Shown here piece after piece: positions 45,731 through 63,074 of a stretch of 64,000 nucleotides of DNA. The notes under the pieces are model-generated. The model saw only the letters and a program-made list of their open reading frames with translations, was not told the origin of the DNA and did not search any database. Position 1 is the first letter of the stretch. Each line of letters opens with the position of its first letter. Both the position numbers and the translations under genes were made by a program. The stretch is from Pseudomonas sp. S35 (lineage in GTDB: Bacteria; Pseudomonadota; Gammaproteobacteria; Pseudomonadales; Pseudomonadaceae), in assembly GCF_009866765.1 (NCBI RefSeq), contig NZ_CP019431.1:3100001-3164000 (forward strand), in the 5' to 3' direction.

Positions 45731-47431
45731 ATGACTAATGGATTAGTTGCACCTGCCCGCCTGTGCCTCATAGAAAAATTCCTGTTGTGCCCACCGGACC
45801 GTCTCATAACGGTTCTTGATCATGATTCTGCCGTTTGCCTGACGCAGTTGGACCTCAAATCGAAGGTTTATCAGGCGCGTCAGGTACTCCGCCAACGTGC
45901 CCTTGAACCGGGGCAGGTCGTAGCGATCTGCATGCCTTCGAGCATGGAGGTGCTGACCGTGGTGCTCGCCGCGTGGGCCGAAAGATTGGCAATCGCGCTT
46001 CTGCCGCACGATTTAACTCATACGACAATGCGTGATGGCAGCGGGTTGGCCGCAATGCTGGAGTTGATTGAACCTGCGTTGATAATGACCAGCGGGGCGA
46101 TAGCGACGAAGTTGCCGGGCTCATGGTCAGATGTCGCCCTGACGGATGACGCGTTGCTCAAGCAGATGAGCGCGATAGCCGATTACGTCGATGAGCCAGC
46201 CTTGAGCCGCCCTGAAGACTTGGCGATTTTACAGTTCACATCTGGCAGTACCGGAATGCCCAAAGCGGTGTGCATCAGTCAGTCGATGCTCAGTTCCAAT
46301 TGTCAGGCAATTGCCGAGCGTGTAAACGTCGACACGACCGACCGGATGGTCAGTTGGTTACCGCTTCACCACGACATGGGGCTTTCCGCATTGACGCTGG
46401 CCTGGTGGTGTTCTATCGATCTGGTGCTGATGCCAACTCACGAGTTTTCTCGACAGCCCATGGCTTGGCTGCAGGCACTTTCTCGCTTCAAGGGTACCTT
46501 GTCACCAGCGCCAACTTCTGCATTTGCCTTGCTCAGCCGCCTCGCCGGACGCGTGCGCGAAGGTGAACTGGACTTGTCCCATTGGCGCTATGCCTGGGTG
46601 GGTGCCGAGCCAGTGTTTTATGACCACCTCCGTCAGTTTGAAATTGCCTTCGCAGTTCATGGCCTGCAAGTGGGTGTACTGCAACCGGCGTACGGTATGG
46701 CGGAAGCAGTGGTTGCGGTTTCACTCAACGCGCCTGGACAAGGTATGCGCGTTCGCTGGTTGGACACTCAAAGCCTGCACAGCTCAATGCTGCTCAAAGA
46801 GCAAGCGCCTGGCACTCCCGGCTCTGCACCTTATCTAGGAAATGGCACGGCAGTCGGTGAAACCGAATTTCGAGTCGTAGATGAACACGAAATTTGTTTG
46901 ACGCAGGGCCAGCTTGGCCGGCTGCAGATCAGGGGCGACAGTATCATTCGCCGTTACTTGAAAATGGATCCGGTGCGACCCGAAGCAAAAGATTGGTATG
47001 ACACGGGTGACCTGGGCTTTCTGCTGAACGATGAAGTGTTCATTACCGGGCGCAGCAAGGACTTGATTACGCGTGCAGGCGTCAACGTCAATCCGCACAT
47101 TATTGAATGGGCGCTGGAAAGTGCCTTCAATTTAGCTGCCGGTTCTGTCGCTGCCTTCTCCTGCATCGACATTCAGCGTTCAAAGGAATGCGTTGTAGTG
47201 GTCATGGCGAGTAATGCTCTTGGCACTCGGGATCCAGCGGAGTTGCGTCGCGAAGTGGCGCAGATCGTTGTACGGCAAGCCGGCGTGCAGGTGGATGAAG
47301 TGCTGCTGATCCGCCGCTCGGAATTCCCTAAAACCACAAGTGGGAAAATCCAACGTCAGGCATTAAGTCGACTGTATTTGAGTAACCGTTTGAGTTCTGC
47401 TGCCGTCACGACTGACCGCGTTTCCGCTTAA
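45731..47431 (+). CDS. Fatty acyl-AMP ligase (FAAL-like)
   Basis: The 566-aa adenylating enzyme has the phosphate-binding motif LQFTSGSTGMPKAV, the FAAL/acyl ligase region SWLPLHHDMGLSALTLAWWC, a run typical of FAALs (PMAWLQALSRFKGTLSPAPT), YGMAEA, and the hinge region YDTGDLGF followed by GRSKDLIT and the terminal catalytic Lys in TTSGKIQR. It should activate a fatty acid as acyl-AMP and load it onto the carrier protein encoded 45 bp downstream. ATG 45731 with AAGGA nine bases before is chosen; ATG 45710 is possible. It is the first gene of the 15-gene operon. Within this cluster its role matches TamT or JamA. Confidence 0.88.
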   Translation: MTNGLVAPARLCLIEKFLLCPPDRLITVLDHDSAVCLTQLDLKSKVYQARQVLRQRALEPGQVVAICMPSSMEVLTVVLAAWAERLAIALLPHDLTHTTMRDGSGLAAMLELIEPALIMTSGAIATKLPGSWSDVALTDDALLKQMSAIADYVDEPALSRPEDLAILQFTSGSTGMPKAVCISQSMLSSNCQAIAERVNVDTTDRMVSWLPLHHDMGLSALTLAWWCSIDLVLMPTHEFSRQPMAWLQALSRFKGTLSPAPTSAFALLSRLAGRVREGELDLSHWRYAWVGAEPVFYDHLRQFEIAFAVHGLQVGVLQPAYGMAEAVVAVSLNAPGQGMRVRWLDTQSLHSSMLLKEQAPGTPGSAPYLGNGTAVGETEFRVVDEHEICLTQGQLGRLQIRGDSIIRRYLKMDPVRPEAKDWYDTGDLGFLLNDEVFITGRSKDLITRAGVNVNPHIIEWALESAFNLAAGSVAAFSCIDIQRSKECVVVVMASNALGTRDPAELRREVAQIVVRQAGVQVDEVLLIRRSEFPKTTSGKIQRQALSRLYLSNRLSSAAVTTDRVSA

Positions 47432-47476
47432 TCATCCTTTACAACAGCACGGATTGCATACGTGCAAGGAGCACTT

Positions 47477-47743
47477 GTGTTTGATGTTATTTGCCAGACA
47501 ATAAAAAGCCTTTCAATGCAGGGCATTCTACCGGCTCATTTGAACAGTTCCGCGATAAAGCCTAACGATACGCTGTTGGACTTGGGGTTGGACTCAATGG
47601 GGCAACTAACGCTGCTCTCCGAGTTGAAAGGTCGTTTATCGCTGAGCTTGCCTGCCGACCAAGTTGATGCGACGACAACGCTTCATGAGTTGGCGTTGAT
47701 ACTTGAGCGTGCGAACACACTCGCGTTTTCTGCGGCGGTATAA
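47477..47743 (+). CDS. Acyl carrier protein 1
   Basis: An 88-aa carrier protein with the phosphopantetheine site Ser40 in DLGLDSMG and the usual four-helix pattern. The start is taken as GTG 47477, preceded by AAGGAG five bases upstream; GTG 47462 is less well placed. Position next to the FAAL gene suggests it receives the activated acyl chain on which the desaturase and reductase act. A phosphopantetheinyl transferase is not in the window. Confidence 0.87.
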   Translation: MFDVICQTIKSLSMQGILPAHLNSSAIKPNDTLLDLGLDSMGQLTLLSELKGRLSLSLPADQVDATTTLHELALILERANTLAFSAAV

Positions 47744-47754
47744 AGGGATCGTCA

Positions 47755-48777
47755 ATGTCCACTAATATGTCTGTAAAAATGCCGTGGTTCGTCAGTGCCA
47801 AGGTCGACACGCTGGCTATTCTGGTTGGAGGCCCATTGATTTCGGTCGCGCTGTTACTGGCTATTATGCAGGGACCGGCGTTTCTGGTGGGCGCGTTGTT
47901 GTTTGCGCTGTTTCTGGATATTCCCCATGTACTGCATACGCACGTTCGATTGTTCGCTGAGCCGCTGGAATATCAGCGCCACAAAGTGCAATTCTGGGCG
48001 GGATTAGTTGTTATCAGTGTCTTGTGCGTCGGCCTCTACAGCCTGAATGCTTTACCTTGGCTTGTGGCGATCTGGGTTTATTGGCAGCCCTATCATGTGT
48101 GTAAACAGCATTTTGGTGTGGCGGCACTTTATGCGAAGAAGGCCGGGTATAAACATTCCACTTTGCCGATTCGCAACATGGTATTGGCCGGGTTTGCTGC
48201 GCCGCTGATTTATCGCATCACTCACGGTGGTTTTCATTTTGGAAACTACGAACTGTTTGAGCAGACGCTGCCGTTTGCGAACATCTCAATTCCAACGCCG
48301 GCACTCGCGCCGTTCTGGGCTTGGTTGGCATACGCTGTATTCGCCGCCACGACGCTTCAATTCCTGGTTGCCGAGCGGCGACAGCAGCGTCATCAAGAAG
48401 GCTTGCCGCGGTTCGTATTGGTCATGCTGGCGGTTTCGCTGGGTTTGTATAACGCCGCTTACCTGCTGGTGAGCGATCTGTACGCGCTTATTTTGATCGG
48501 TACCAGCATCCACGCGCTGCAATACCACTTGGTGTGCACGTCTACCGTGATGGCTGGACTGCGCCGAACTGAAACCCAGCCAGCCGTCACAGGCGCCTTG
48601 GGTGTTGCACACGGTTGGGTCAAGCGGATGGGGGCTAAACCGTGGATCTGGTTCAGTACGCTGGGGCTGGCCAGTCTGTTGGTGCTCAGCCTGGAGATGC
48701 CTTCTGTAGGGCTGGTACCGCTGATCATCGTTCTGCATCACTTCTACCTGGATGGTGTCATTTGGAAACGTCGGTGA
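47755..48777 (+). CDS. Polytopic membrane protein with conserved-looking histidine clusters
   Basis: This 340-aa protein has about eight hydrophobic segments and belongs to no family I can name. Histidines cluster near membrane borders: DIPHVLHTHVRLF, WQPYHVCKQHFGVAALY, HALQYH and, at the C-terminus, LHHFYLDGVIWK. Spaced His pairs of this sort are found in membrane metal-dependent oxygenases and desaturases, so a di-metal lipid-modifying enzyme is a fair inference. A structural or transport role cannot be excluded. It starts 11 bp after the carrier protein gene and overlaps the desaturase gene by GTGA, so it is made together with both. Confidence 0.7.
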   Translation: MSTNMSVKMPWFVSAKVDTLAILVGGPLISVALLLAIMQGPAFLVGALLFALFLDIPHVLHTHVRLFAEPLEYQRHKVQFWAGLVVISVLCVGLYSLNALPWLVAIWVYWQPYHVCKQHFGVAALYAKKAGYKHSTLPIRNMVLAGFAAPLIYRITHGGFHFGNYELFEQTLPFANISIPTPALAPFWAWLAYAVFAATTLQFLVAERRQQRHQEGLPRFVLVMLAVSLGLYNAAYLLVSDLYALILIGTSIHALQYHLVCTSTVMAGLRRTETQPAVTGALGVAHGWVKRMGAKPWIWFSTLGLASLLVLSLEMPSVGLVPLIIVLHHFYLDGVIWKRR

Positions 48778-49802
48778 AGCCTGTCGCAAACCTGGACGGG
48801 CGTACCTTCGTGGACGAGTTGCGCCCATTGATCGAGGACTTGCGACGCCATCATGCATGGCGCTATCGCTTGGACTTCGGATTGAGCATCGGCTTGTTCT
48901 GGGTCGCACTGTCCATGCTCGAAGGCGCCGGTTCTGTGACTTGGCCGTTATGGTATGGCACGGCGGTGTTCACGCTTTACCGGTCGGCCATGTTCATTCA
49001 TGAGCTGAGCCATATGCCGCGCCGCGCTGTACCCGGGTTCAACCTGATGTGGAACCTGGCGTGTGGTATCCCACTGCTGTTGCCATCGTTTTTGTATTTG
49101 AGCCATATCGACCACCATACGCTCGGGCGCTACGGCACTCGCCAGGATCCGGAGTACCTGCCCTTTGAGCAGCAGTTTGGCCGCAGTGTGATCACCTTAT
49201 TGGTCGGTACGCTTTTTACGCCGCTATTGCTGTTGGTACGTTTTGCAGTACTTGGCCCGGCCTCTTGGTGCATTGCGCCGCTGCGTCGGCGGGTCATCGA
49301 GCGATACAGTGCGGTCACCTTACATGCCGCCTACCGAAACACGGCGACGCGTTTTCGTAGCGCGCGCGGCTACAACTACCTGCTGGAGATAGCGACCAGC
49401 CTTTATGCGTGGGGGCTGATCGCTGCAGCAGGCTCAGAGATGTTGCCGTGGTCGCGTGTCGGCCTGTTCCTTGCCGTCATTTATGGTGTGTTGTTCATCA
49501 ACATGTTCCGCACATGCCTGGCGCATCGGTATGCCTCCAGCGGTGAACCGGTATCACTTCAATGGCAATTGGCCGATTCGTCGACCCATGATCGACAGGG
49601 AAGTTGGCTGGAACTGCTTGAGCCCCTGAGCCAACGCTATCACGCCATGCATCATCTTTTTCCGGCATTGCCCTATCACTCTTTGAGACCAGCCCATGAA
49701 CGAATCATGGTGGCCGAGGGTGTGGCGGCGGATCTTTATCGACAGACAGCGGGTCGGCTATCACCCGTTTCGTCACCCTACAGCACAGAGAATCTTTCAT
49801 GA
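48774..49802 (+). CDS. Membrane fatty acid desaturase
   Basis: The 342-aa integral membrane desaturase has three histidine boxes: HELSH (76-80), HIDHH (111-115) and HAMHH (290-294), with hydrophobic helices between. Such di-iron enzymes insert double or triple bonds into acyl chains; when encoded beside a FAAL and a carrier protein they commonly act on acyl-ACP. The start is GTG 48774 (GTGA overlap with the previous stop). Frames running further upstream lie inside the previous gene. Its own stop overlaps the aminotransferase-reductase start by ATGA. Whether it is a desaturase or acetylenase cannot be read from the sequence. Confidence 0.87.
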   Translation: MKPVANLDGRTFVDELRPLIEDLRRHHAWRYRLDFGLSIGLFWVALSMLEGAGSVTWPLWYGTAVFTLYRSAMFIHELSHMPRRAVPGFNLMWNLACGIPLLLPSFLYLSHIDHHTLGRYGTRQDPEYLPFEQQFGRSVITLLVGTLFTPLLLLVRFAVLGPASWCIAPLRRRVIERYSAVTLHAAYRNTATRFRSARGYNYLLEIATSLYAWGLIAAAGSEMLPWSRVGLFLAVIYGVLFINMFRTCLAHRYASSGEPVSLQWQLADSSTHDRQGSWLELLEPLSQRYHAMHHLFPALPYHSLRPAHERIMVAEGVAADLYRQTAGRLSPVSSPYSTENLS

Positions 49803-52414
49803 GCCCTTGGCAGCAAATCAGTCCATTTGAGCAGCATGTGAATCCTGCGGTCGGCGAATTGATTCGTCGGGTAGGGCTCGACAAAACGTTTGTCCGCGGC
49901 GAGGGCTGCTACCTCTATGACGCACAAGGACGGGCTTACCTGGATTTTCTCGGTGCGTACGGTGCGCTGCCATTCGGCCATAGTCCGGACGCATTGCTGG
50001 CCGAACTGGCCAGCTTTCAACTGAGTCGGGAACCGATCTTTGTGCAGCCATCTTCCCTGGCGGCAAGTGGGTTGCTGGCACAACGTCTATTAGCAATCGC
50101 GCCAGGCGATTACCGAAGCGTGACCTTTCAAAACAGTGGCGCCGAAACGGTAGAGGCGGCACTTAAAGCCTGCCTTATCAAGACAGGTCGCAAGCGCATT
50201 TTGTCGACCCACCAGAGCTTCCATGGCAAGACGCTCGGAGCGCTCTCAGCGACAGGCTCGGATAAATATCAGGAAGGTTTCCAAGCGCCGTTGCCTGGTT
50301 TTGATTTTGTTGACTATGGCGATATTCAGGCCCTTGAAGACCAATTACAGCGCCACCCTGACGCCTACGCTGCAGTAATCATTGAACCGGTACAGGGCGA
50401 GGGTGGAATCAATCTGCCGCCGCCCGAGTACCTGCAGCAAATCAGGGCCGCCTGTGATCGCAGCGGCACCCTGTTGATTATCGATGAGGTTCAAACCGGA
50501 CTGGGACGCACCGGGCAGATGTTCGCCAGTGCGGGGGTGCAAGCGGACTGCCTGCTGCTGGCGAAAGCCCTGGGCGGCGGGGTCATGCCGATCGGTGCCT
50601 GTTTGCTCAGCAAGAACGCGTACAGCGAAGACTTCCAGAACAAGCATTCATCTACGTTCGGCGGCAACACACTGGCCTGCCGCATCGGGCTGAAAGTGCT
50701 GGATCTACTGGACGAACGTCAAGACCTGCTGGACGGCGTGCGAGAAAACGGACGCTACTTGCTGGAACAACTCAACGAGCTGGCGGCACGACACGCCTCG
50801 TTCATCAAGGAAGTACGCGGTGCGGGCTACCTGATCGGCATCGAGTTTGATCTTGATCGCAGTCACTATCCGCAATTCTACGGCGGCTTCACCGGCATCA
50901 TGGGGGAGCAGGAAAGCCTTGTTCCCATTCTCGCAAGCTACTTGCTCAATGTTGAAGGTGTACGCGTTGCACCGACCCTCAACGGTGCGAACGTGATGCG
51001 TGTCGAGCCTCCCCTCATCGCCGGGCGAGCCGAGTGTGAAGTGTTTATCCAGGCGCTGGCTCGCACGCTGCAATGGGTGGAGGAGGGGCGTACGGGCACA
51101 TTACTTGCGCATCTGCTTGATGCTCAGCCCTGCTCGTCGGGACCACCGCCAGCGCCGCTGCATCAGATCAGCTTTACCGAGGCAGTGCCTGATAACCATT
51201 TTGCATTTGTTTTGCATCCCCTGGAACTCTCGAACTATGCCGAATTCGATGAAAGCCTGAGTCATTATTCTCAACAGTCGTTGCGCATGCTTGAAGAGCG
51301 CTTGAATCCGTTGATGGACCCATTTTTCGTCTCTACCGTCGAGCTTACATCGCCTGCCACCGGTCGCAGAGTGACCGGTGATCTGATCATGGTGCCACGC
51401 TCCGCGGCGCAGTTTGCGGCGATGCCCGTTGAGGAGTCCTGTGAACTGATCGGCCAGGCCATCGACATGGCCAAGCAACGCGGTGCAACGTTGGTCGGGC
51501 TAGGCGGGCATACCTCAATCGTGACCGGTGGTGGCTTGCGTTTGTTGGATAAAGGCGTGGCCCTGACGACGGGTAACAGTTACACGCTGCTTACAGCGGT
51601 CGAGGCATCGTGCCGTGCGGTTGAAATGACAGGGCGCCGAATGCAGGACATGCGCGTTGCGGTTATTGGTGCCACCGGAAGCATAGGCTCGGCCATCGCG
51701 CGGTTGATTGCGATGCAGGCCGGACAGGTCACCCTGGTGGGTAACCCGATGAGTGCACGGTTCAACACGCCGCGCTTTGGCTCTGTCATTACTCAGTTGG
51801 TGAACTTCTGCACGCAGGGCGTGCCGGCGCCCGGCAGCGTACTTGCCGCAATCGCTGAGCGTTTGAACGAACACGATAGCGCCGATCTCGCAGCCTTGTT
51901 GTTGACTGAAAACGGTGAGCGTACCGCGCTGCGCTGGAGTAACGACATCAACCTTTCGTTGGCCGACGCTGACTTGGTACTGATTGCGACTAACAGCGCC
52001 GAGCGCTTTATCAGCGCCGATGACATCGCCGAAGGGGCCATCCTGTGTGACATCTCCCGACCCGCCAATGTCAGCCAGGATATCTCCAGTCGCCGGCCGG
52101 ACGTGCTGGTGCTTGACGGTGGCATTGTCGAAATGCCCGGAGAAGCACGCTTGGGCTCACGTTACGGTATCCCGCAAGACCTCGCCTACGCCTGCATGGC
52201 CGAAACCATGATGCTCGCCCTCGAAGGTATTTCCTGCCACACGAGCCTTGGTCTGGACCTCAGCAATGATGACCTTGAATTGGTTCAATCGTTGTCCGTG
52301 CGCCACGGTTTCATGCTGGCTGGATTTCGCAGTTTTGATAAAGCCCTCGATCCCGATCAGTGGCGCAGATACGCCGAACGATTCAGCACCGCTACCGCTG
52401 TCGAAACCATCTAA
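49799..52414 (+). CDS. Bifunctional class III aminotransferase / acyl-ACP reductase fusion
   Basis: The 871-aa protein is two enzymes joined. Residues 1 to about 430 are a class III PLP aminotransferase: FQNSGAETVEAALK, IIEPVQGEGG, IIDEVQTGLGRTG and cofactor Lys256 in LAKALGGG. Residues about 460-860 read like the cyanobacterial long-chain acyl-ACP reductase (AAR): VTGDLIMVP, GATLVGLGGHTSIVT, the Rossmann motif VIGATGSIGSA (near 620-632), DGGIVEMPG, YACMAETMMLALEG with Cys799 aligned to the AAR acyl-accepting Cys, and VRHGF near the end. Together they would reduce acyl-ACP to an aldehyde and transaminate it to a primary amine, as proposed for TamH of tambjamine biosynthesis. Confidence 0.9.
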   Translation: MSPWQQISPFEQHVNPAVGELIRRVGLDKTFVRGEGCYLYDAQGRAYLDFLGAYGALPFGHSPDALLAELASFQLSREPIFVQPSSLAASGLLAQRLLAIAPGDYRSVTFQNSGAETVEAALKACLIKTGRKRILSTHQSFHGKTLGALSATGSDKYQEGFQAPLPGFDFVDYGDIQALEDQLQRHPDAYAAVIIEPVQGEGGINLPPPEYLQQIRAACDRSGTLLIIDEVQTGLGRTGQMFASAGVQADCLLLAKALGGGVMPIGACLLSKNAYSEDFQNKHSSTFGGNTLACRIGLKVLDLLDERQDLLDGVRENGRYLLEQLNELAARHASFIKEVRGAGYLIGIEFDLDRSHYPQFYGGFTGIMGEQESLVPILASYLLNVEGVRVAPTLNGANVMRVEPPLIAGRAECEVFIQALARTLQWVEEGRTGTLLAHLLDAQPCSSGPPPAPLHQISFTEAVPDNHFAFVLHPLELSNYAEFDESLSHYSQQSLRMLEERLNPLMDPFFVSTVELTSPATGRRVTGDLIMVPRSAAQFAAMPVEESCELIGQAIDMAKQRGATLVGLGGHTSIVTGGGLRLLDKGVALTTGNSYTLLTAVEASCRAVEMTGRRMQDMRVAVIGATGSIGSAIARLIAMQAGQVTLVGNPMSARFNTPRFGSVITQLVNFCTQGVPAPGSVLAAIAERLNEHDSADLAALLLTENGERTALRWSNDINLSLADADLVLIATNSAERFISADDIAEGAILCDISRPANVSQDISSRRPDVLVLDGGIVEMPGEARLGSRYGIPQDLAYACMAETMMLALEGISCHTSLGLDLSNDDLELVQSLSVRHGFMLAGFRSFDKALDPDQWRRYAERFSTATAVETI

Positions 52415-52428
52415 GAGAGGATCCGAGT

Positions 52429-52881
52429 ATGCCCGTATTGGAAAAAACCACCCTCATCAAGGGGCGTAGCTGTGCCGAGGTATTCGACTTCTGCATGGAA
52501 GGTGTGAACTTCCCGAAGATCTTCCCGGAGCGCGTTACCCCACTTGGAAACATAGATATTGCTGACCTGCGGATCGAGCAAGGGCGTCAATTCCGTTTCC
52601 GGCATTGGATGTTCGGGTTTATCCCTGCCAATTGGACCGTTGGCATCCGCGAAGTCAAAGACAACGAGTATTTCATTGATGAAATGATCAAGGGGCCCCT
52701 GAGTGCGTTCCGGCATGAGCATCGCGTTGAATCCGCTGCCGGGGGGACGCTTTATACCGACCGAGTGACTTATCACGCCATAGGCGGTGCGCTGTTTGAG
52801 TGGTTGTTTGTCGACGCCTATATGGACCGGATATTTGAAGCACGTCACCGCAACATGCAACAGCTTTTGGACCTCTCATGA
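52429..52881 (+). CDS. SRPBCC-family ligand-binding protein
   Basis: A 150-aa protein with the START/SRPBCC helix-grip pattern: an N-terminal strand (LEKTTLIKGRSCAEVFDFCM), a central FRFRHWMFGFIPANWTVGIR, and a long C-terminal helix (FEARHRNMQQLLDL). The family holds hydrophobic ligands and includes cyclases, dehydratases and lipid carriers. No catalytic residues are diagnostic. The start at 52429 has GAGAGG upstream, 14 bp after the aminotransferase-reductase stop. It overlaps the next gene by ATGA. It might carry or shape the lipid intermediate. Confidence 0.78.
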   Translation: MPVLEKTTLIKGRSCAEVFDFCMEGVNFPKIFPERVTPLGNIDIADLRIEQGRQFRFRHWMFGFIPANWTVGIREVKDNEYFIDEMIKGPLSAFRHEHRVESAAGGTLYTDRVTYHAIGGALFEWLFVDAYMDRIFEARHRNMQQLLDLS

Positions 52882-54008: not shown

Positions 54009-54026
54009 ACTGGAGCTGTAATCGAA

Positions 54027-54713
54027 ATGGATAATCCCTTGATTTCTCTTGTGGGGCTGAAAAAATTCTACCCCAGCGGTGACGGGCGCAGTTTAGTGCT
54101 CAATGACATCAACCTGACGATACCTCGCGCCAGCATGACGGTGATCAGAGGTGTATCAGGCTCGGGCAAAACCACGCTGCTCAATGTGCTGGGCGGTTTG
54201 GATCGTGTGGATGAGGGGTTGGTCCAGGTCGCAGACGCACGCCTGAACGCCATGGACTTCAAGGCATTGACGCGTTTCAGGGCGGAGCGGGTAGGGTTCA
54301 TCTTCCAGTTTCACAACTTGATCCCGACGTTGACGGTGAAGGAAAACGTGCTGACTGGGCTTGAACCGCTCCGCTCAGTCACTTTGCAGGATCATGCGCG
54401 CGCGCAGGAATATTTGCGCAAAGTTGGTCTGCACGAACACGCCGAAAAATTCCCTTCAAAACTCTCCGGAGGTCAGCAACAGCGGGTCGCTATTGCGCGA
54501 GCGCTTATCAAGGAACCTCAGTTGATTCTCGCGGACGAGCCCACCGGCAGTCTTGACGAAGAGACAGGCATGCGTGTTTTTGAACTGCTGCGTCAGATGC
54601 AGGAAGAGAAGCAGGTCACGGTGGTCATCGTCACGCATAACCCCGCACTTGGGCAGCACGCCGATGACGTCTACGAGATGCGCTCCGGCAACCTGCACAG
54701 GGCCGAACCATGA
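54027..54713 (+). CDS. ABC transporter ATP-binding protein (LolD/MacB type)
   Basis: The 228-aa ATPase has GVSGSGKTT (Walker A), LSGGQQQRVAIARAL (signature) and LILADEPTGSLDEETG (Walker B plus D-loop), with the FQFHNLIPTLTVKENVL region of the LolD/MacB family. It pairs with the FtsX-type permease whose gene overlaps its stop. These transporters act mechanically on substrates at the periplasmic side rather than pumping through a membrane pore. A lipid extraction role fits the neighbours. Confidence 0.92.
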   Translation: MDNPLISLVGLKKFYPSGDGRSLVLNDINLTIPRASMTVIRGVSGSGKTTLLNVLGGLDRVDEGLVQVADARLNAMDFKALTRFRAERVGFIFQFHNLIPTLTVKENVLTGLEPLRSVTLQDHARAQEYLRKVGLHEHAEKFPSKLSGGQQQRVAIARALIKEPQLILADEPTGSLDEETGMRVFELLRQMQEEKQVTVVIVTHNPALGQHADDVYEMRSGNLHRAEP

Positions 54714-57070
54714 ACATGCTGATGCGGCATGTGCTTCGCTCGGTTCTGGTCATTCGCTATCGCTTGCTGACCATCGCACTGATCTGTGCCTCGACCTTTG
54801 GTGTGCTGGTGGGTGCCTATTCGGCGATCGACAGTCTGTTCGATACGGTCGAGGACATTCAGTCCCACGCATCGATGGCCGATCTGGAAGTCATCTTTGC
54901 GCCGGACGATCTGATCAACCTCCCGGCATTCGATGACATTGCCGGCGTAACCGCGACCCATCACCGCTTACTGATGCCAGGGTTGGCGCCTTTGCGCGGT
55001 AGTCAGCCGGTCGCAGGGTTGATGGTGAGTGCCGACGCCGCGGATTTCTCGGCGGTCAACCGACTGAAGGCCTTGCAAGGTCGCCTGCCTAATGCAGCGG
55101 ACGTTGCAGGAATTGCCCTTGAGCGTAACTGTGCGAAATTCCATGGGAAGGGCGTGGGTGACCGTTTTGATTTTATTGCCGGCGCTGCCAGGTATCCGGT
55201 GGAGGTTATCGGCATCGTTGAAAGCCCAGAGTATCTGGTCGCGCCGCTGAACCCCAGTGTGTACGTGCCCAGCAACGGCTCCCTGTGTGTGTTGTTTGCT
55301 GACCAGGGGCTCATGCGCCAGCAGTTGGGCTTTTCAGCCAGCAACAGCTTATTGTTCAGCGTGTCGCCGCATGCATCGATGAATGAGGTCAAGCAGCGCA
55401 TTGCCGCGCGAGCGCAGTCGCGTCTGGCCGTCGATTACGTGCTGCCTCGCCAGGAGCAGTTCAGCCAAAAGTTCCTCGAGTTGGACCTCAATACCTTCAA
55501 GGTTTTCCTGCCGACGGTTGTGCTGATTTTTGCGCTGTCATCGACCTTGGTGGTGTTTTTCCTCATGTTCCAATGGGCCAAGGAAGAACGCCCATTGATC
55601 GCAATGTTTCTCACGCTGGGCTATACGCGTCGACAGGTCGTTTGCGCTTACAGCCTGCCTGCGCTGATGCTGATTGTGCTCGCTTTGGTGCTGGGTTGCG
55701 GCCTGGCGCTGTTTGATATGTATGCATTCGGCTGGAACTACGCACGCGCCATCGGCATGCCCGAGCCACAGTTGATGTTCAAGCCAGCTTATCTATGGCG
55801 AGCCGGATTATTGCTGTGCTGCACCGTCGCCCTGGGCATGTACTTGCCGATGCGCTCGATCATTCGCATCACGCCGATGGACGCCCTGCGTGACGTTGGC
55901 GCAGGTCAGGAGCAAGCGTTTGCGCTGCGTATGGTCGCCTGCCTGCGTCATATCGGAGGACCGTTCTGGTTTCGTTATTCGTTGCGCAACTTGCTGCGCA
56001 GCTGGCGCATCAGCCTGGTCACGGTGCTGGCAATGTCGGCGAGTATCGCAATCACCATTGCCTTCTATATTTCCCTGACGTCCATGGAGCGAACCGCGAT
56101 CAGCAACGTGGAGCGCGACAACTGGAGTCGCGTGGTCGATCTGGATGTGCCCTGGTGGGATGAAGATATCGGACGTCTCGAAGGCCTGGCGTCAGGCAGT
56201 CGCTGGTCGACGTTCGTCAAAGGCGGGGCGCAGGTTTTGGGCGAAGGGCAGCTGGATAACGCCAGTCTCCTGGGTATCGAGCCGGCCGACAGCGTGCGTC
56301 ACGTAAACCTGATGGAAGGCCGGATGTTGTTGGACGGCGATCTTGACACGCTGGTGATTGAACGCCGCATCGCCATTGCCCATGACGTCCACCCAGGTGA
56401 CCGTTTGAATCTAAAAGTGCGAGGAAACGTCTATCCGGCCAAGGTCGTCGGGGTGTTTTCCGGGGCGCTGCCGGGTGAAGTGATTACGACGCGCCGCTTC
56501 GCTCAGCAAATGCTGTCACTGGATGAGCAGTTTACCGGCGCTTACCTGGTGGATGCGGGGAGCAGTGGCCTGGACGATGCGAGAATCTATGAGTTGGCAG
56601 GCGTGGTACGGGTTACGTCCAAGCAGAACATAGTCGCCTCCATCTTGGAGATCAGTTCGCATATCTGGGTGATCATTCACATCTGCGCGTTGATGAGTAT
56701 TGCGATTGCACTGCTGTTTGCGGTGACCAGCATGAACTTCAGCATCGTGGGGCGTCGCGGCGAATATGGCGTGTTGAGAATTCTCGGTTTCAGCGACCGA
56801 AGTGTGTCGCTCATCATGCTTTGCGAAACCTTCAGCGTTGCGCTGCTTGCTGGCGTGGTGTCCATCCCGCTGGGCTATGGTCTCGCAGGCGTCCTCAATC
56901 ATCGCCTGACGGACGTCTGGTTCAAGATCAACACCGACCCCGCCTTCAGTGATTTCTGGAGAGTCATCCTGCCCGCCTTGGTGATTATTCCATTCGCAGC
57001 AATGCCGGCCATTCGTCATGTATTGCGTATTCGCGCGGTAGACACGCTCAAACTCAGGAATTTTGGATGA
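54710..57070 (+). CDS. FtsX-type ABC permease with duplicated core
   Basis: A 786-aa permease. The N-terminal helix (residues about 12-40) is followed by a periplasmic MacB_PCD-like domain. Three helices lie near 260-390 (FLPTVVLIFALSSTLVVFFL starts one), then another helix, a second periplasmic domain, and three final helices near 650-770. That is two FtsX modules in one chain, as in YbbP-like permeases. It ends with the IPFAAMPAIRHVLRIRAVDT pattern. It shares 4-bp overlaps with the ATPase and the LolA-like genes, making a three-gene export unit inside the cluster. Confidence 0.88.
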   Translation: MNMLMRHVLRSVLVIRYRLLTIALICASTFGVLVGAYSAIDSLFDTVEDIQSHASMADLEVIFAPDDLINLPAFDDIAGVTATHHRLLMPGLAPLRGSQPVAGLMVSADAADFSAVNRLKALQGRLPNAADVAGIALERNCAKFHGKGVGDRFDFIAGAARYPVEVIGIVESPEYLVAPLNPSVYVPSNGSLCVLFADQGLMRQQLGFSASNSLLFSVSPHASMNEVKQRIAARAQSRLAVDYVLPRQEQFSQKFLELDLNTFKVFLPTVVLIFALSSTLVVFFLMFQWAKEERPLIAMFLTLGYTRRQVVCAYSLPALMLIVLALVLGCGLALFDMYAFGWNYARAIGMPEPQLMFKPAYLWRAGLLLCCTVALGMYLPMRSIIRITPMDALRDVGAGQEQAFALRMVACLRHIGGPFWFRYSLRNLLRSWRISLVTVLAMSASIAITIAFYISLTSMERTAISNVERDNWSRVVDLDVPWWDEDIGRLEGLASGSRWSTFVKGGAQVLGEGQLDNASLLGIEPADSVRHVNLMEGRMLLDGDLDTLVIERRIAIAHDVHPGDRLNLKVRGNVYPAKVVGVFSGALPGEVITTRRFAQQMLSLDEQFTGAYLVDAGSSGLDDARIYELAGVVRVTSKQNIVASILEISSHIWVIIHICALMSIAIALLFAVTSMNFSIVGRRGEYGVLRILGFSDRSVSLIMLCETFSVALLAGVVSIPLGYGLAGVLNHRLTDVWFKINTDPAFSDFWRVILPALVIIPFAAMPAIRHVLRIRAVDTLKLRNFG

Positions 57071-57846
57071 ACAGCAAACTGCTAACTGCGTTGCCTCTTT
57101 TAATGCTTTGCACATGGCCCGCCTTCGCCGACGATGCACTGGCGGTCATGCAGGATTCTGATCGCCGTATGAAGGCACAGGACGAAAAAGTCGACTATCG
57201 CATGGAGCTGTTTGAGGGCGAGCGGCTGACCTTTACACGCCAACTGAGTCGCTTGGACAAGCGTATGAGCGACCGCATGGGCACCTTGGTACGGTTCACC
57301 GCGCCCGCGGCCGTCAAGAATGTTGCTCTGTTAATTGAGGACAGTGGAAAAGCCGCGAACGACATCTGGTCTTATACCCCATCGACCAAAAGCTTGAGAC
57401 GACTGGCCGGTTCTCAAAAGCAGAACTGGTTCATGGGGACGGACTTCACCTATGAAGACTTTGAGGACTACAAGCTGCTGAACTACACGTTCACCAGCCT
57501 CGCGACCTCTCAGCCCTGCCTCAGTTGGCCGGCATGCCGGCAGATTGAAGCGAAGGCGCGTAGCGAAGAGGCAGATATTTCCGGCTATTCACGCAAGGTC
57601 TATTACCTCGAAGAGCAGAGCCGTTACCCGGTGCAGGTGGATTACTTTGACCGCCAGGGGGTGCTGGTCAAACAGCTTAAAAGCGACGGCTTGCAAGTTG
57701 TTGACGGATTCAGCAGGCCTACGGCCCAGACCATGCACAATCTGGCAGCCAATAAGAGCACGCGGATGATTGTCGAGAAAGTGAGCATCAACCCTGGCAT
57801 CTCGGATGCTGAATTCACTCAACGTGCCTTGCGCACTGAACACTGA
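57067..57846 (+). CDS. LolA-like outer membrane lipoprotein-sorting family protein
   Basis: The 259-aa periplasmic protein has a signal peptide (LLTALPLLMLCTWPAFA) and the LolA/LolB-like half-barrel pattern of the lipoprotein-sorting (COG2834) group: YRMELFEGERLTFTRQLSRL, RFTAPAAVKNVALLIE, DIWSYTPSTKSLRRLAG and FMGTDFTYEDFEDY. Members beside permeases shuttle hydrophobic cargo through the periplasm. It overlaps the permease gene and lies 15 bp before carrier protein 2. It is probably the carrier between the FtsX permease and the outer membrane. Confidence 0.82.
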   Translation: MNSKLLTALPLLMLCTWPAFADDALAVMQDSDRRMKAQDEKVDYRMELFEGERLTFTRQLSRLDKRMSDRMGTLVRFTAPAAVKNVALLIEDSGKAANDIWSYTPSTKSLRRLAGSQKQNWFMGTDFTYEDFEDYKLLNYTFTSLATSQPCLSWPACRQIEAKARSEEADISGYSRKVYYLEEQSRYPVQVDYFDRQGVLVKQLKSDGLQVVDGFSRPTAQTMHNLAANKSTRMIVEKVSINPGISDAEFTQRALRTEH

Positions 57847-57861
57847 TCCCGAGAGTCCCGT

Positions 57862-58119
57862 ATGTCGACTGAATCGCTGCAAACCCTGGTGCTGGAGTTG
57901 CTCGCCAGCACGTTGGAACTGGATATCACTGAGCTGGATACGCAACTGAGCATCGAAGAGCTGGGGCTCGACTCGCTGGACGTACTGAAGCTCACCTACG
58001 CAATTGAAAAGCGATTCGCTGTCAATTTATCAGCGTACAGCCATACCGATATCAGCTCCGTGTCTCGCCTGGTGGAAATACTTGCTGAACGGCTGGCCTC
58101 CAAGCGAGCGGTTTCATGA
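57862..58119 (+). CDS. Acyl carrier protein 2
   Basis: An 85-aa carrier protein with phosphopantetheine Ser38 in ELGLDSLDV. It differs strongly from carrier protein 1 (47477-47743), so the two probably serve separate steps. It overlaps the ketosynthase gene by ATGA, which suggests that this carrier feeds that enzyme. The ATG has a GAG-type site upstream. Confidence 0.9.
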   Translation: MSTESLQTLVLELLASTLELDITELDTQLSIEELGLDSLDVLKLTYAIEKRFAVNLSAYSHTDISSVSRLVEILAERLASKRAVS

Positions 58120-59333
58120 ACACAGTTGTCATTACCGGAGTGGGGTGTGTGTCACCGTTTGGTGTGGGTCGAGCGCGTCTTTGGGAGGGGTTGGCCACAG
58201 GACAATGTGCCATCGCACCAGTGCCTCGTTTGATCGACGTTGTCGGCGGAACATGTAACGCGGGGGCATTGCCGGATGATGCACTTGATGGCCTGTTCAC
58301 GGCCAATGAGTTGTTACTGTTAGACCGCGCGAGTCAGTTTGCACTGCTGTCGGCGGCGGAGGCGCTGGCCATGGCCGGTCTCAACCCTGCCACGGTTGAC
58401 CCCTACAGGTGCGCGGTCTACATGGGCACCGCCTTGGGTGGCAGCGAGTCGTTGCACAGCGCCTATCTGGATCTCTATCAGGCCGGCAGCGCTACACTCG
58501 CGCCGTGGACGGTGCCCCGGGTCATGGCGAATGCCGCCGCCAGTCACATAAGCTTAAAATACGGTTTCAAGGGCCCAGCGCTCACCGTCAGCACCGCGTG
58601 TGCCTCTTCCACACAGGCGATTGGCGAGGCTTATCGGTTGTTGCGATGCGGTGATGCAGACCTGGTGATGGCAGGTGGTACTGACGCATGTCTTAACGCA
58701 CTGGTCTGGAAAGCATGGGAGGCGTTGCGAGCAATGGCCCCCGATACCTGCCGGCCATTTTCCGTCGGCCGGCGTGGCATGGTGCTGGGCGAGGGGGGCG
58801 GGGTATTGGTTCTGGAGACCCTGGCGCATGCCCGAGCGCGCGGCGCACCGATACTGGCTCACGTATTGGGGTATGGGGTCAACAGTGACGCTGGCGACTT
58901 ACTCAAGCCATCCGTGGACGGCCCCGCTCAGGCCATGCGCCAGGCCATTGCCGACAGCTGCTTGCCCGTCGAGGCATTCAGTTACATCAACGCCCACGGC
59001 ACTGGCACTTTACTCAATGACCGGTGCGAAACGGCGGCTATCAAACACGTATTCGGCGCTCATGCGCCTTCGCTGGGCGTGTCATCCGTCAAGTCCTCGA
59101 TAGGTCATCTGATGGGCGCTGCGGGGGTGGTCGAGTTGATTGGGGGGCTTATGGGCTCGATACACAATCAGATTCCCGGAACCCTCAATTACCTGGGGCA
59201 GGATGCCGACTGCGACTTGGACTATGTGACTGGGGGCGCGCGCGAGGCCAATGTGAAAGCGTGGCTGAAAAACTCCTTCGCGTTTGGTGGCCTTAATGTT
59301 TCCTTGGCTCTGGCTGCGCAGGGCACTCAATGA
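58116..59333 (+). CDS. Beta-ketoacyl-ACP synthase (KAS II/FabF type)
   Basis: A 405-aa condensing enzyme with an intact Cys-His-His triad: C162 in STACASSTQA, H294 in NAHGTGT and H331 in SIGHLMGAAG. It also has MAGGTDACLNA and the C-terminal NSFAFGGLNVSLAL. It should extend an acyl chain by two carbons on carrier protein 2. No malonyl transferase, ketoreductase of FabG type or dehydratase is in the cluster, apart from the SDR downstream; housekeeping enzymes could supply these. It overlaps genes on both sides by 4 bp. Confidence 0.92.
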   Translation: MNTVVITGVGCVSPFGVGRARLWEGLATGQCAIAPVPRLIDVVGGTCNAGALPDDALDGLFTANELLLLDRASQFALLSAAEALAMAGLNPATVDPYRCAVYMGTALGGSESLHSAYLDLYQAGSATLAPWTVPRVMANAAASHISLKYGFKGPALTVSTACASSTQAIGEAYRLLRCGDADLVMAGGTDACLNALVWKAWEALRAMAPDTCRPFSVGRRGMVLGEGGGVLVLETLAHARARGAPILAHVLGYGVNSDAGDLLKPSVDGPAQAMRQAIADSCLPVEAFSYINAHGTGTLLNDRCETAAIKHVFGAHAPSLGVSSVKSSIGHLMGAAGVVELIGGLMGSIHNQIPGTLNYLGQDADCDLDYVTGGAREANVKAWLKNSFAFGGLNVSLALAAQGTQ

Positions 59334-60301
59334 TTCTGGTCACCGGCGCCAGTGGATGCCTGGGCAGTCATATCGTGCGGGAGTTGCTGGAACAGGGTGA
59401 GCACGTGGCAGTGCTGGTCTTGCCGAACGATCCAGCCGTGGCGTTGCAGAGCCTGCGCGAAGGTTTGGTCTGGCGCGAAGGCGATCTTCTGGATCCCGCC
59501 AGCCTCGGGTCCGCGCTTGAAGGCGTCACACAGATCTACCATGCCGCCGGTTTGGCGCTGCCTTACGAGTGCGAGCGCAAGCGTATGTTTGCGGTCAACG
59601 TGCAGGGAACGGTGAATTTGCTGCGGGCCGCTCGCGACGCGGGGGTCGAGCGCATCTTGCACGTATCGTCCATCGCTGCCGTTGGCTATCCGGCCGAGGA
59701 AGCGGACGAGTCAATGATCTATAACGGCGATGCATTTCGGCTGGCCTATATGCACAGCAAGCGTGATGCAGAAGATCAGGTTCGTGGTTTCTGTGCGTCG
59801 GGCATGGATATTGTCATTGCGTGTCCCTCTGCGGTCATCGCCTCCAACTGCGATGTGCTGCATGGATGGGGCAAGGTCATGCTTGATCTGCAGCTTCGAC
59901 GCCTGCCGTTTATCCCACCCGGCGGCATTGCGGTCATCGGCGCGCAAGATCTGGTGAGGGGGCTGCTGGCCGTCATGGCCAAAGGCAAGAGCGGGGAGCG
60001 ATATATCCTGAATGCTCATAACGTCAGCTATCTCCAATTGTTCACCTGCATGGCCGCTGCGATGGCCGTCGAAGCACCGCGTTGGCAGCCTCGCACATTG
60101 GGATGGATCGTCGCCCTTTTGCGGCCGTTGGACGTATTGCTCACGAGAATACCCCTTAGGCTCTCGGCCGATGTCGTTGCGTTGCTGGGCAGGCAGGTTC
60201 ATTACCGAAGTGACAAGGCTCGTCGGCAATTAGGCTTCGTGCCGGCACAATCACTGGAGCATATGGTCCATGAGGCCGCAAGCTGGTTGACGAGTCGATA
60301 G
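59330..60301 (+). CDS. NAD-dependent epimerase/dehydratase-type extended SDR
   Basis: A 323-aa extended short-chain dehydrogenase: MILVTGASGCLGSHIVRELL at the N-terminus (TGxxGxxG), YHAAGLALPY, the Ser in HVSSIAAVGYP, and Tyr/Lys in YMHSKRDAE. Extended SDRs of this 3-beta-HSD/dihydroflavonol reductase look reduce keto groups on lipid and steroid substrates. Here it may reduce the beta-ketoacyl product of the ketosynthase or oxidise an alcohol. It is coupled to the ketosynthase gene by a 4-bp overlap. Confidence 0.87.
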   Translation: MILVTGASGCLGSHIVRELLEQGEHVAVLVLPNDPAVALQSLREGLVWREGDLLDPASLGSALEGVTQIYHAAGLALPYECERKRMFAVNVQGTVNLLRAARDAGVERILHVSSIAAVGYPAEEADESMIYNGDAFRLAYMHSKRDAEDQVRGFCASGMDIVIACPSAVIASNCDVLHGWGKVMLDLQLRRLPFIPPGGIAVIGAQDLVRGLLAVMAKGKSGERYILNAHNVSYLQLFTCMAAAMAVEAPRWQPRTLGWIVALLRPLDVLLTRIPLRLSADVVALLGRQVHYRSDKARRQLGFVPAQSLEHMVHEAASWLTSR

Positions 60302-60312
60302 GAGATTGATCG

Positions 60313-61842
60313 TTGAATGCATGGATGATGTTTGATCCTCAAGCTCGGCAGGACACGCCTGCTGTGACTGAGTTGAATGCATGGTTGCAGGACTGGGCGA
60401 AACGCCTGGACTTTCGCCTGATGGATGAGCGCCGTTGCCTGCCGCCGCACTTGGTGCTGGCAGTCGGGAACCGGGGTTTACTGGGAATGCAGGTGCCCGC
60501 CGACTATGGCGGCCGGTTGTGCTTGTCCAACTTCGAATTGCTGCGAGTACAGCGTCAATTGGGCGCCATCGACCTGACCTTGGCTTTTTTTATCGGTCTC
60601 AACAACGGGTTGGGTATCCGTCCTATTCAACGCTTCGCGGCGCCAGCGATCAAAGAGCGGTACCTGCCGCAACTGGCGAATGGTCGAATGCTCGCCGCGT
60701 TTGCGTTGACTGAGCGGGCGGCGGGCTCCAACCCGTTGGGCATGGCGGCCTGCGCGCGACGTGAAGGCAGTGTGTTCAGGCTTGATGGGACTAAGTCCTG
60801 GTCAGGTTCGGCTGCATGGGCGGGCGTCATTTCGGTATTCGCCCGGCATATTGATGACCAAGGGCGTGAGCTCGGCTATTTGGGGCTCTGTGTAGATGCA
60901 GAGCAACAAGGTATGCGCCAGGGTAGCGAAGCGATGACGCTTGGCCTCAAAGGCATGGTGCAGAACCAACTGCATTTTGAAGCTGCGCTGGTCAACCAGG
61001 ACCGAGTCCTGGGAAGTGCCTATGCAGGCCTGGCTGTGGCCAGCGACACGATGGCGTTCGGCCGGCTGGGTATTGCCGCTACCTGTGTCGGTGGGTTATG
61101 GCGGTGTGTTCAGTTGATGATCCGCTATAGCACCCGACGTAGCCTGGGCGGTCACCCTCTTTGGGATCATGAGCATACTCAACGCGTGGTTGATGACGCG
61201 CTCTGTGCAGCGACAGCAATCGGTAATTGGGTCGATGAGCTGGCGCTACGACTGGATCAGGGCTCGCCTGACGCTCCCCCCGAGGTCCTGGCCGCGACGA
61301 AGTGGTTGGCCAGCGAGGTGCTCGGGGAGGTCAGTGATAGCGCGCTGCAGATGCTAGGGGCTCGCGGCTATTGCGATAACAATCCCATTGGACAACTCTG
61401 GCGCGACGCTCGCATTACGCGCTTATTCGAAGGGCCTTCGGAAACGCTGGCGGCATTCATCGGCCAGCGCGTGCTGGAACAACCCAGCACGGTCATCGCC
61501 TACCTTGACCAGACTGCCCATGGCGAAATTACCCGAGCACGAATCCTGGAGTGGACCGCCGAAGAGGTGTCCGCCTCGCGTTTATCTGCGGGTTCGCTCA
61601 GGTTGGGGGAATGTGCTGCCTGGTTGATGCTCTCGTCGCAACCGCTGGATGAATTCTGTCGCCGTTGGGTGGACTATCGACTGGAGAGGGCGCTGCACGC
61701 GTGGGAAAGAACACGTTTACCTATCAGAAAAATGAATTACTTGAGCGATTGGGCAACGATTGATGCAGGTCTTCAGGATTGCATCCAGCCCGGTGAAGAG
61801 CGCGAGATCGACCCTTTGCTAGCCTCACAGGTGAGCCTATGA
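60313..61842 (+). CDS. Acyl-CoA dehydrogenase-family flavoprotein
   Basis: A 509-aa ACAD-like protein: LLGMQVPADYGGRLCLSNFE, FALTERAAGSNPLGMAA, GTKSWSGSAAWAGVISVFAR, the arginine-containing ITRLFEGPSETLAAFIGQ region, and a C-terminal extension. It would create a double bond in an acyl thioester, as TamP does on carrier-bound dodecanoate in tambjamine formation. The start appears to be TTG 60313 with GGAG eight bases upstream; ATG 60325 is too far from it. It follows the SDR by 11 bp and overlaps the next gene by ATGA. Confidence 0.87.
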   Translation: MNAWMMFDPQARQDTPAVTELNAWLQDWAKRLDFRLMDERRCLPPHLVLAVGNRGLLGMQVPADYGGRLCLSNFELLRVQRQLGAIDLTLAFFIGLNNGLGIRPIQRFAAPAIKERYLPQLANGRMLAAFALTERAAGSNPLGMAACARREGSVFRLDGTKSWSGSAAWAGVISVFARHIDDQGRELGYLGLCVDAEQQGMRQGSEAMTLGLKGMVQNQLHFEAALVNQDRVLGSAYAGLAVASDTMAFGRLGIAATCVGGLWRCVQLMIRYSTRRSLGGHPLWDHEHTQRVVDDALCAATAIGNWVDELALRLDQGSPDAPPEVLAATKWLASEVLGEVSDSALQMLGARGYCDNNPIGQLWRDARITRLFEGPSETLAAFIGQRVLEQPSTVIAYLDQTAHGEITRARILEWTAEEVSASRLSAGSLRLGECAAWLMLSSQPLDEFCRRWVDYRLERALHAWERTRLPIRKMNYLSDWATIDAGLQDCIQPGEEREIDPLLASQVSL

Positions 61843-63074
61843 AGGTACCGGCAGTGAAGGTCGGCCTTGCATTAGCGATACTGAGTAATGTCTGTTACGG
61901 CGACGCTCTCGACGCACTTGATTTCAACGGCCGTCTGGAAACCCGACAAGCGTTGACCCGCGAAGGCGAGTGGGGGCTCAACGAGTACTCCGCATTGTTG
62001 GGGGGGAGTTGGCAGGATGCATCGGGCTGGCGCTACAAGTTGCAAGTCAGGGCTTTGCAGGAAAATAAACTGGACGGCGACTATCACGAAGTCGAGCCCC
62101 GTGAACTCTTCGCTGAATACCAAGGCGAACGATGTACCTCCACGCTGGGGATACAACAAGTCGTCTGGGGCAGCGCTGACCGGCTCAGGGTCCTGGACGT
62201 GATCCATGCGTTTGACCGTCGCGAAGGCTATTTCGGCGACTATGTCCAGCAACGACGCCCATTGGCCATGCTCAACAGTGAATGCTCGGTATTCCAGGAT
62301 CAGTCCTTACAGCTGCTGTTGATCCCCCAGACGCGTAAGGACCTGCTTCCCGATAGCGGTGCCCGTTTTGCTGAAACCAGGGTCAGCGATTATTTGGGCA
62401 ATATCCCTCAGACCGAAGCGGATGGTCCGGACTGGCGTAAACCTTCCGACTGGACACCCGCCTTGCGCTGGAGCGGCAACGCCCATGGGGTGGACTATTC
62501 CTTGAATGGCTGGCACGGCTGGCAGACTGAAGAGACCTACTCCGCCCGGCTGACACCCGCTGGTCTGAGTTATCGAGAAGCACTGAAGCGTCGCACACTG
62601 CTTGGCGGCTCATTCGCGATGCCGATAGGGCCGTTGGTATTGAAGGGTGAAGCGGCCTTCGTCCCTGACGCCTATCGTTACTCCCAGGCACAAACCGGCA
62701 TCGTTGGGCTGGAGAAGAACCGTCAGAAGCAATTGCTGCTGGGTATGGATTACTTGAGTGGGGACTGGTTCTTCGGCATGCAGTACTACAACGTCTGGAA
62801 GGAGGCCGTGGCGCGCGCCGTCGATCAGGATCGCACGCAAATGATCAGCTTGGCGGTACGCCGCGAGCTATGGCAGGGCCGGCTTTACCTCACCGCTTAC
62901 GTTGCGCAGGACCTGCGGCTGGATGCGCAATATGCTTCTTTGGAAATGCGGTACGACGTTGATGCCCACTGGCAGCTACGTACGGGTGTGGACATATTCG
63001 AGGGCAGTCAGCGTAGCTTCGGTTATTTTGACGAACAAAGCCGGTGGATTAATGCTGTGCGTTATTCCTTTTAG
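61839..63074 (+). CDS. DUF1302-like predicted outer-membrane beta-barrel protein
   Basis: The 411-aa product has a signal peptide (VGLALAILSNVCYGDA) and alternating strand-rich sequence ending DEQSRWINAVRYSF, with a terminal aromatic residue as in barrels. Segments FNGRLETRQALTREGEWGLN and QQVVWGSADRLRVLDVIHAF resemble DUF1302 proteins, which occur beside lipid exporters and DUF1329/MMPL genes. It is the last gene of the operon and likely the outer-membrane element of the export line. I am moderately sure of the family. Confidence 0.72.
   Translation: MKVPAVKVGLALAILSNVCYGDALDALDFNGRLETRQALTREGEWGLNEYSALLGGSWQDASGWRYKLQVRALQENKLDGDYHEVEPRELFAEYQGERCTSTLGIQQVVWGSADRLRVLDVIHAFDRREGYFGDYVQQRRPLAMLNSECSVFQDQSLQLLLIPQTRKDLLPDSGARFAETRVSDYLGNIPQTEADGPDWRKPSDWTPALRWSGNAHGVDYSLNGWHGWQTEETYSARLTPAGLSYREALKRRTLLGGSFAMPIGPLVLKGEAAFVPDAYRYSQAQTGIVGLEKNRQKQLLLGMDYLSGDWFFGMQYYNVWKEAVARAVDQDRTQMISLAVRRELWQGRLYLTAYVAQDLRLDAQYASLEMRYDVDAHWQLRTGVDIFEGSQRSFGYFDEQSRWINAVRYSF

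Follow-up and report, generated by a model that had tools for sequence, protein, structure and literature searches.

A fifteen-gene operon of Pseudomonas sp. S35 that may encode the synthesis and outer-membrane delivery of an amine-derived lipid

A tight block of fifteen genes, located at positions 45731..63074 of a 64,000-nucleotide stretch of the Pseudomonas sp. S35 genome (C1:3100001-3164000 of 6.6 Mb in one contig; hereafter the window), raises the question of which lipid it makes and where that lipid goes. The reading that we favour, with a probability of about 0.48, is that the block forms a complete line of its own for making an N-acylated long-chain amine, that is, a two-chain, ceramide-like amide formed without serine palmitoyltransferase (SPT), and for delivering it to the outer membrane. 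All fifteen open reading frames (ORFs) are on the + strand, and the largest intergenic gap, between the first two genes, is 30 bp, in agreement with a first-pass annotation that had put all genes on one strand with gaps of at most 45 bp; it had also given nine 4-bp overlaps, of which we count eight (junctions 3/4, 4/5, 6/7, 8/9, 9/10, 11/12, 12/13 and 14/15 of the 14). That annotation proposed a fatty amine or amine-headed lipid with its own export line, and its amine formation, absence of pyrrole genes and export line are supported, while the roles that it gave to Tam genes and its label for the acyltransferase, as well as the overlap count, had to be corrected. Pfam matches across the operon are AMP-binding, PP-binding (twice), FA_desaturase, Aminotran_3, ABC_tran, FtsX with MacB_PCD, LolA_like, ketoacyl-synthase, an Epimerase-type short-chain dehydrogenase/reductase (SDR) and acyl-CoA dehydrogenase (ACAD); the SRPBCC and GNAT proteins gave only sub-threshold Pfam matches, and gene 3 and the barrel gene 15 gave none.

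Probable formation of a fatty amine

The firmest part of the reading is the formation of a fatty amine by a fatty acyl-AMP ligase (FAAL), an acyl carrier protein (ACP) and a fusion enzyme, which is highly probable from the families concerned; transport toward the outer membrane comes next. Gene 1 (45731..47431, 566 aa) matches PF00501 and, below their cut-offs, FAAL-type NCBIfam models, with 30% identity to an Escherichia coli AasR-type ligase, and gene 2 (47462..47743, 93 aa; PF00550, GLDS at residues 42-45) encodes the carrier ACP1. Gene 5 (49799..52414, 871 aa) encodes a transaminase-acyl-ACP reductase fusion. Its N-terminal half is a class III transaminase (PF00202 over residues 31-424, pyridoxal phosphate lysine Lys256), and its C-terminal half matches solved acyl-ACP reductases including 6jzq, with GxxGxxG from residue 624 and Cys799 in a motif that aligns with the cysteine motif of 6jzq. 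It matches the PigE model below the cut-off (516 of 850 bits) and, with both the transaminase and the reductase domain present, is of the PtTamH/KecF type. PtTamH, whose domains are arranged in the same way, acts on C7-C14 aldehydes and, when coupled with PtTamA, converts fatty acids to amines (PMC9594044). For PP_2782 and three thermophilic relatives, transaminase activity was shown in 2024 and the reductase activity deduced from structure (PMC10829540).

The route proposed for the tambjamine tail consists of loading by TamA, dehydrogenation by TamT, and reduction with amination by TamH (PMC5939613), and the FAAL, ACP1, the ACAD of gene 14 (60313..61842, 509 aa; FEGP motif present) and gene 5 fit this route. 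The first-pass annotation had ascribed the tail to TamT, TamB, TamP and TamH; in the accessible text of the same source TamP is not named and TamB is given no such role. As in the YP1 tail pathway of Pseudoalteromonas tunicata, the operon would activate an acid onto an ACP and holds an ACAD and a fusion with the same domain order. It differs from that pathway in its separate FAAL and ACP genes, in lacking pyrrole genes, and in the addition of a membrane desaturase, a ketosynthase, an SDR, a YghO-family acyltransferase and an export line. Bipyrrole (4-methoxy-2,2'-bipyrrole-5-carbaldehyde, MBC) families were the best match of none of the fifteen proteins; the earlier claim of amine formation by FAAL, ACP and fusion without pyrrole genes is supported.

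A second known use of such a fusion is the koreenceine cluster kecA-K of Pseudomonas koreensis (PP_2777-PP_2787 in P. putida KT2440), in which kecIJK were proposed to export the alkaloid (PMC6498172). Like the operon, it combines ACP, ketosynthase and SDR genes with a fusion (KecF) and with genes of proposed export function. Two Pseudomonas loci, koreenceine-like by gene content only, have a similar arrangement: L087 holds an ACP, ketosynthases, a fusion, two SDRs, a barrel, a LolA-like protein and an MMPL pump consecutively, and L086 is alike. The operon might accordingly produce a cyclic imine or alkaloid of this kind, formed by chain extension at the ketosynthase, conversion to an amino ketone by the fusion and spontaneous ring closure. 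We consider this highly improbable, since the operon holds a single ketosynthase, with no second partner of the chain length factor (CLF) type, versus the two ketosynthase/CLF pairs of koreenceine clusters; since it has instead FAAL loading, a desaturase and an N-acyltransferase, all three absent from the published koreenceine list, whose product is a cyclic alkaloid; and since gene 5 is only 31% identical to the fusions of L086 and L087, versus 42-49% to those of Firmicutes.

These Firmicutes relatives were considered as members of the same pathway and rejected: in 46 loci (L016-L062 without L057) the gene context is different, as 17 of them share a 493-aa neighbour and 16 a 192-aa one, which we take to be prolyl-tRNA synthetase and 5-formyltetrahydrofolate cyclo-ligase. 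Many fusions of L016-L062 (mostly Firmicutes metagenome-assembled genomes, MAGs) are thus found in a recurring housekeeping-like neighbourhood, and the enzyme type may therefore have a general role there. In L060, P0017 and P0033 the fusion enzyme is followed by a ligase in the same polypeptide. In a Pseudomonas locus (L088:8175-10664, G009) a reductase-like stretch (28%) precedes a transaminase-like one (37%), which is the domain order of PigE, and FAAL-like and ACAD-like matches follow further on.

The acyltransferase of gene 7 and the fate of the amine

Is the amine left free, or does it receive a second chain? Gene 7 (52878..54008, 376 aa), a tandem-GNAT protein whose GNAT fold is clear in the structure model, aligns with YghO over 380 columns at 26% identity (E 7e-42; hhalign 100%), and by this similarity it is a member of the YghO/CC_1154 family of bacterial ceramide N-acyltransferases. 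The earlier label 'GNAT-like' understated this full-length family match. The earlier proposal left the product as a free or an N-acylated lipid amine; because of the family of gene 7, the N-acylated form now appears the likelier of the two, and long-chain N-acylation by gene 7 is, on balance, somewhat probable. Among 398 Pseudomonadota genomes, all 35 with a clear SPT carry a YghO-family GNAT (Fisher 7e-43, a value that ignores the kinship of the genomes), or 35 of 37 if two genomes excluded from that set are counted, G1057 and G916, which have weaker SPT matches (38 and 40%) and no GNAT.

The operon shares with the bacterial sphingolipid pathway (AasR, AcpR, SPT, CerR, CerS/YghO) an acyl-ACP ligase, a dedicated ACP, an extended SDR and the YghO-family N-acyltransferase, but it has no SPT, its nitrogen would enter via transamination, its SDR is only partly similar and its gene 7 falls in another clade. 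A more specific proposal, which we put forward tentatively as it is rather less probable than the general one, is that of a sphingolipid look-alike made without SPT, with a terminal amine provided by the fusion, a 3-hydroxy or unsaturated backbone, an amide-linked second chain and Lol-type delivery encoded in the same operon. If true, such a ceramide mimic, with a transport system of its own, would represent a bacterial surface lipid of a new class, and reductive amination of an acyl-ACP, instead of SPT, would be a second way to a ceramide-type lipid. In E. coli INSC1002 (L084:319-3672) the SPT gene adjoins two genes annotated lptF and lptG; in E. coli K-12 (L083) yghO adjoins an IS5 copy, with no SPT gene annotated in the stretch examined.

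Several results weigh against an N-acylated, ceramide-like product. Eight of the 43 GNAT carriers are without a clear SPT, namely the window's genome (no match at E 1e-70; 4 of 14 candidates scored) and seven others (G811, G864, G946, G949, G1096, G1124 and G1129). The reductase half of the fusion was found in none of ten genomes, these seven and three with SPT, in a search that had no positive control; as the seven showed neither SPT nor this half, the GNAT family has other uses. In a tree of 65 rows, YghO and the SPT genomes group apart from the GNATs of the operon, which are united in a separate clade (100/99), so that gene 7 lies outside the SPT-linked clade of bacterial ceramide synthases in the narrow sense. 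The tree held the window protein, YghO, nine close relatives (54-86% identity, assumed to be operon copies), every third of P0143-P0240, and 21 proteins of 300-480 aa from 24 loci of genomes other than the window's own, three loci having given no usable frame; 18 of the 42 other GNAT genomes had no locus and hence are not in it. Furthermore, the SDR of gene 13 is 33% identical to CerR over 118 N-terminal residues only, the similarity of the FAAL and ACP to AasR and AcpR is generic, gene 3 was placed in no family by Pfam (E 10) or profile comparisons, and in 66 of the 78 loci discussed below the fusion enzyme stands alone or with weak further matches, outside any such operon.

On the other hand, the product could be a free or N-acetylated unsaturated fatty amine, formed by the logic of the tambjamine tail without the pyrrole and exported as an antimicrobial, with gene 7 capping or detoxifying it with a short acyl group. 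In favour of this are the agreement of the FAAL, ACP, ACAD and fusion with the scheme of TamA, TamT and TamH, the fact that acetyltransferases come closest to gene 7 among solved folds, and the joint occurrence of a FAAL, an ACP, a fusion, an ACAD and two desaturases in another Pseudomonas locus (L085). Against this, the family of gene 7 is present in all 35 genomes sampled with a clear SPT and the protein is fused to the ATPase in some relatives (see below), which is easier to reconcile with a step of synthesis immediately preceding export than with capping, and we regard the free or acetylated amine as rather unlikely. The cluster of L085 (6336-18697, G001) also holds a LuxR-type regulator, a monooxygenase resembling the flavin-containing (FMO) type and a ferredoxin-reductase-like protein between its two desaturases, and resembles a route to unsaturated fatty amines that includes an oxidation.

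Proposed pathway and export line

For the N-acylated amine, the events could proceed as follows. From their families, the FAAL would activate a free fatty acid and load it onto ACP1. The chain would be desaturated by gene 4 (48774..49802, 342 aa; a membrane fatty acid desaturase with PF00487 and three His boxes), by the ACAD, or by both. Gene 3 (47755..48777, 340 aa) encodes a polytopic membrane protein in which five His and three Asp residues are invariant across an alignment of 24 relatives, and its model is all but helical (pLDDT 89); comparison with three BCD proteins of the Brp/Blh carotene dioxygenases (PF15461), a family considered for gene 3, gave an hhalign probability of 0.2%, with a thin profile. 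It may, as a guess, be a metal-dependent membrane enzyme that acts on the lipid chain at this step. The FabF-like ketosynthase of gene 12 (58116..59333, 405 aa; Cys-His-His motifs present), the ACP2 of gene 11 (57862..58119, 85 aa; PF00550, GLDS at 35-38) and the SDR of gene 13 (59330..60301, 323 aa; an extended, HpnA-like and partly CerR-like protein with YxxxK present, whose best NCBIfam model, HpnA, is matched below its cut-off) would extend either the backbone or the second chain by a two-carbon unit and reduce the keto group. The fusion enzyme, given its motifs and the precedent of PtTamH, would then reduce its presumed acyl-ACP substrate to the aldehyde and aminate it, and the tandem GNAT, to judge from its family, would acylate the new amine with an acyl group of presumed donor and chain length.

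The lipid would be passed on by the SRPBCC (START-like) protein of gene 6 (52429..52881, 150 aa; sub-threshold PF03364/PF10604), the start of which is best taken as the ATG at 52429 and which is the most conserved gene of the operon (86-100% identity in close relatives). The LolD/DevA-type ATPase of gene 8 (54027..54713, 228 aa; family models, Walker A and LSGGQ), of the ATP-binding cassette (ABC) class, and the duplicated FtsX/MacB-type permease of gene 9 (54710..57070, 786 aa; PF02687 and PF12704 in two stretches each) would lift it from the inner membrane. The LolA-like periplasmic carrier of gene 10 (57067..57846, 259 aa; PF17131, signal-like N-terminus) and the barrel of gene 15 (61839..63074, 411 aa; signal-like N-terminus) would take it to or through the outer membrane. 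The barrels of L086, L087 and L060 share 27% identity with it; the L060 protein matches PF06980 (DUF1302), which gene 15 does not match directly, and it is through this relative that gene 15 can be described as a putative DUF1302-like outer-membrane barrel. The families, their co-conservation and the occurrence of six database proteins that fuse gene 7 (57-63% identity) to gene 8 (64-67%), four whole and two with a partial GNAT, point to transport of the product toward the outer membrane, which is probable, and the earlier proposal of a co-encoded export line gains support from the ATPase, permease, carrier and barrel.

With the Lol system (LolCDE, LolA, LolB) the operon has in common a LolD-type ATPase, an FtsX-type permease and a LolA-like carrier, but it has one duplicated permease, a carrier of the LolA_like family PF17131, a DUF1302-like barrel and no LolB, and its cargo is presumed to be a lipid. 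The monoterpene efflux system AmeABCD of Castellaniella defragrans likewise combines a DUF1302 outer-membrane protein with a LolA-superfamily periplasmic protein, with a pump of the resistance-nodulation-division (RND) instead of the ABC type, an apolar terpene cargo and, in the accessible text, no biosynthetic genes (PMC6394551). In L087, a DUF1302-like barrel, a LolA-like protein and an MMPL pump occupy the positions of kecIJK, the pump being found where the operon has LolD/FtsX. Quite different fusion-enzyme clusters thus carry a LolA-like carrier and a DUF1302-like barrel together with an ABC or MMPL pump. In L060 (4566-19512; a Lysobacterales MAG) a 1433-aa fusion-ligase adjoins LolA_like, MMPL and DUF1302 proteins, a second ligase and a condensation domain; could this be another exported amine-derived product? 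For the sphingolipids of Caulobacter, no flippases or transporters had been identified according to the accessible text of PMC11087976, and the operon, if read correctly, provides a candidate transport line for ceramide-type lipids. Its gene set is not described in the open-access PubMed Central (PMC) text searched, subscription papers and preprints being outside this scope; as far as that search goes, the combination of a tambjamine-tail core, a ceramide-synthase-family acyltransferase and a Lol-type line is undescribed.

Conservation, distribution and genomic site

Genome contigs were scanned with the fusion protein and 78 loci were fetched. In eleven of them (L005-L015) all fifteen genes are present at 44-98% identity with order and strand unchanged, the barrel being truncated where the fetched stretch ends; these eleven are ten Pseudomonas records, including P. 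mediterranea, P. gingeri, P. batumici, P. lini and P. parasichuanensis, and Chromobacterium sphagni. Seven further regions all carry 15/15 genes with the barrel complete to its C-terminus, although only L122 is a new genome and the other six seem to be repeats of earlier records. The fifteen genes are therefore a real operon family kept as a unit; the first-pass annotation had named a lack of such conservation as a refuting condition, and this did not hold. The dN/dS ratio (nonsynonymous to synonymous substitution rates) was 0-0.33 in the 71 of 75 gene-locus pairs for which it was computable, dS not being so in four. A decayed remnant with six of the fifteen genes is found in P. cyclaminis (L057:21-4055), in which the FAAL, fusion, GNAT and ACAD are fragments and the SRPBCC and barrel alone look whole.

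The operon is rare in Pseudomonas: gene 3, used as its marker, had a strong match in 8 of 398 genomes, two further weak matches containing stops, and in a profile search of 369 genomes of the class it matched two, the window's own and one distant relative. The G+C content of the operon is 56.9%, versus 62.0% in the first 45 kb of the window; orthologous operons have 62-67% in 10 of 11 loci and 56.2% in P. lini, and the low value of the window therefore goes with lineage. A plasmid origin was considered and rejected, as megablast with the operon gave no match among 72,556 plasmid records.

The upstream gene (43919-45190) has no match in 19 compared stretches, ten of which reach ~5.9 kb upstream, and we infer that the operon sits at different sites in different genomes. 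By blastn, 8 of the 19 stretches become similar to the window 59-154 bp ahead of the FAAL start, and the similarity stops 51 bp (L122) or 196 bp (L057) past the operon end. An exception may be L057, whose place and that of the window may be related: downstream of its remnant are relatives of the window genes at 38.4-41.4 kb (41-68% identity in tblastx segments). These data also bear on whether the product of the operon is no more than a portion of a larger surface lipid or lipopeptide, with a head group added by genes elsewhere. The matches of the fifteen proteins include no glycosyl- or phosphotransferase family, and genes 3, 12, 13 and 14 are without a placed role, as such a partial pathway would have it; the recurrence of the same fifteen genes in order in other species and the lack of a match to the flanking gene in the stretches compared make it very unlikely.

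The stretch before the operon (45577..45730, + strand), common to L122 and, from 45654 or 45672 on, to seven others, is presumably its promoter region. Promoter-like sites were fewer in the region than in shuffles. A terminator-like stem with a T-rich tail is located at the operon end (63071..63105, + strand), such sites being no commoner in the region than in shuffles. In the closest relative (L122:6710-6967) ACP2 is four residues shorter owing to a stop codon far from the GLDS site. By reading of the sequences, a ParE-like ORF and an IS21-like istB/istA pair extend from 63787-64000 of the window on to 67036 in L129, the pair starting 1.7 kb downstream of the operon.

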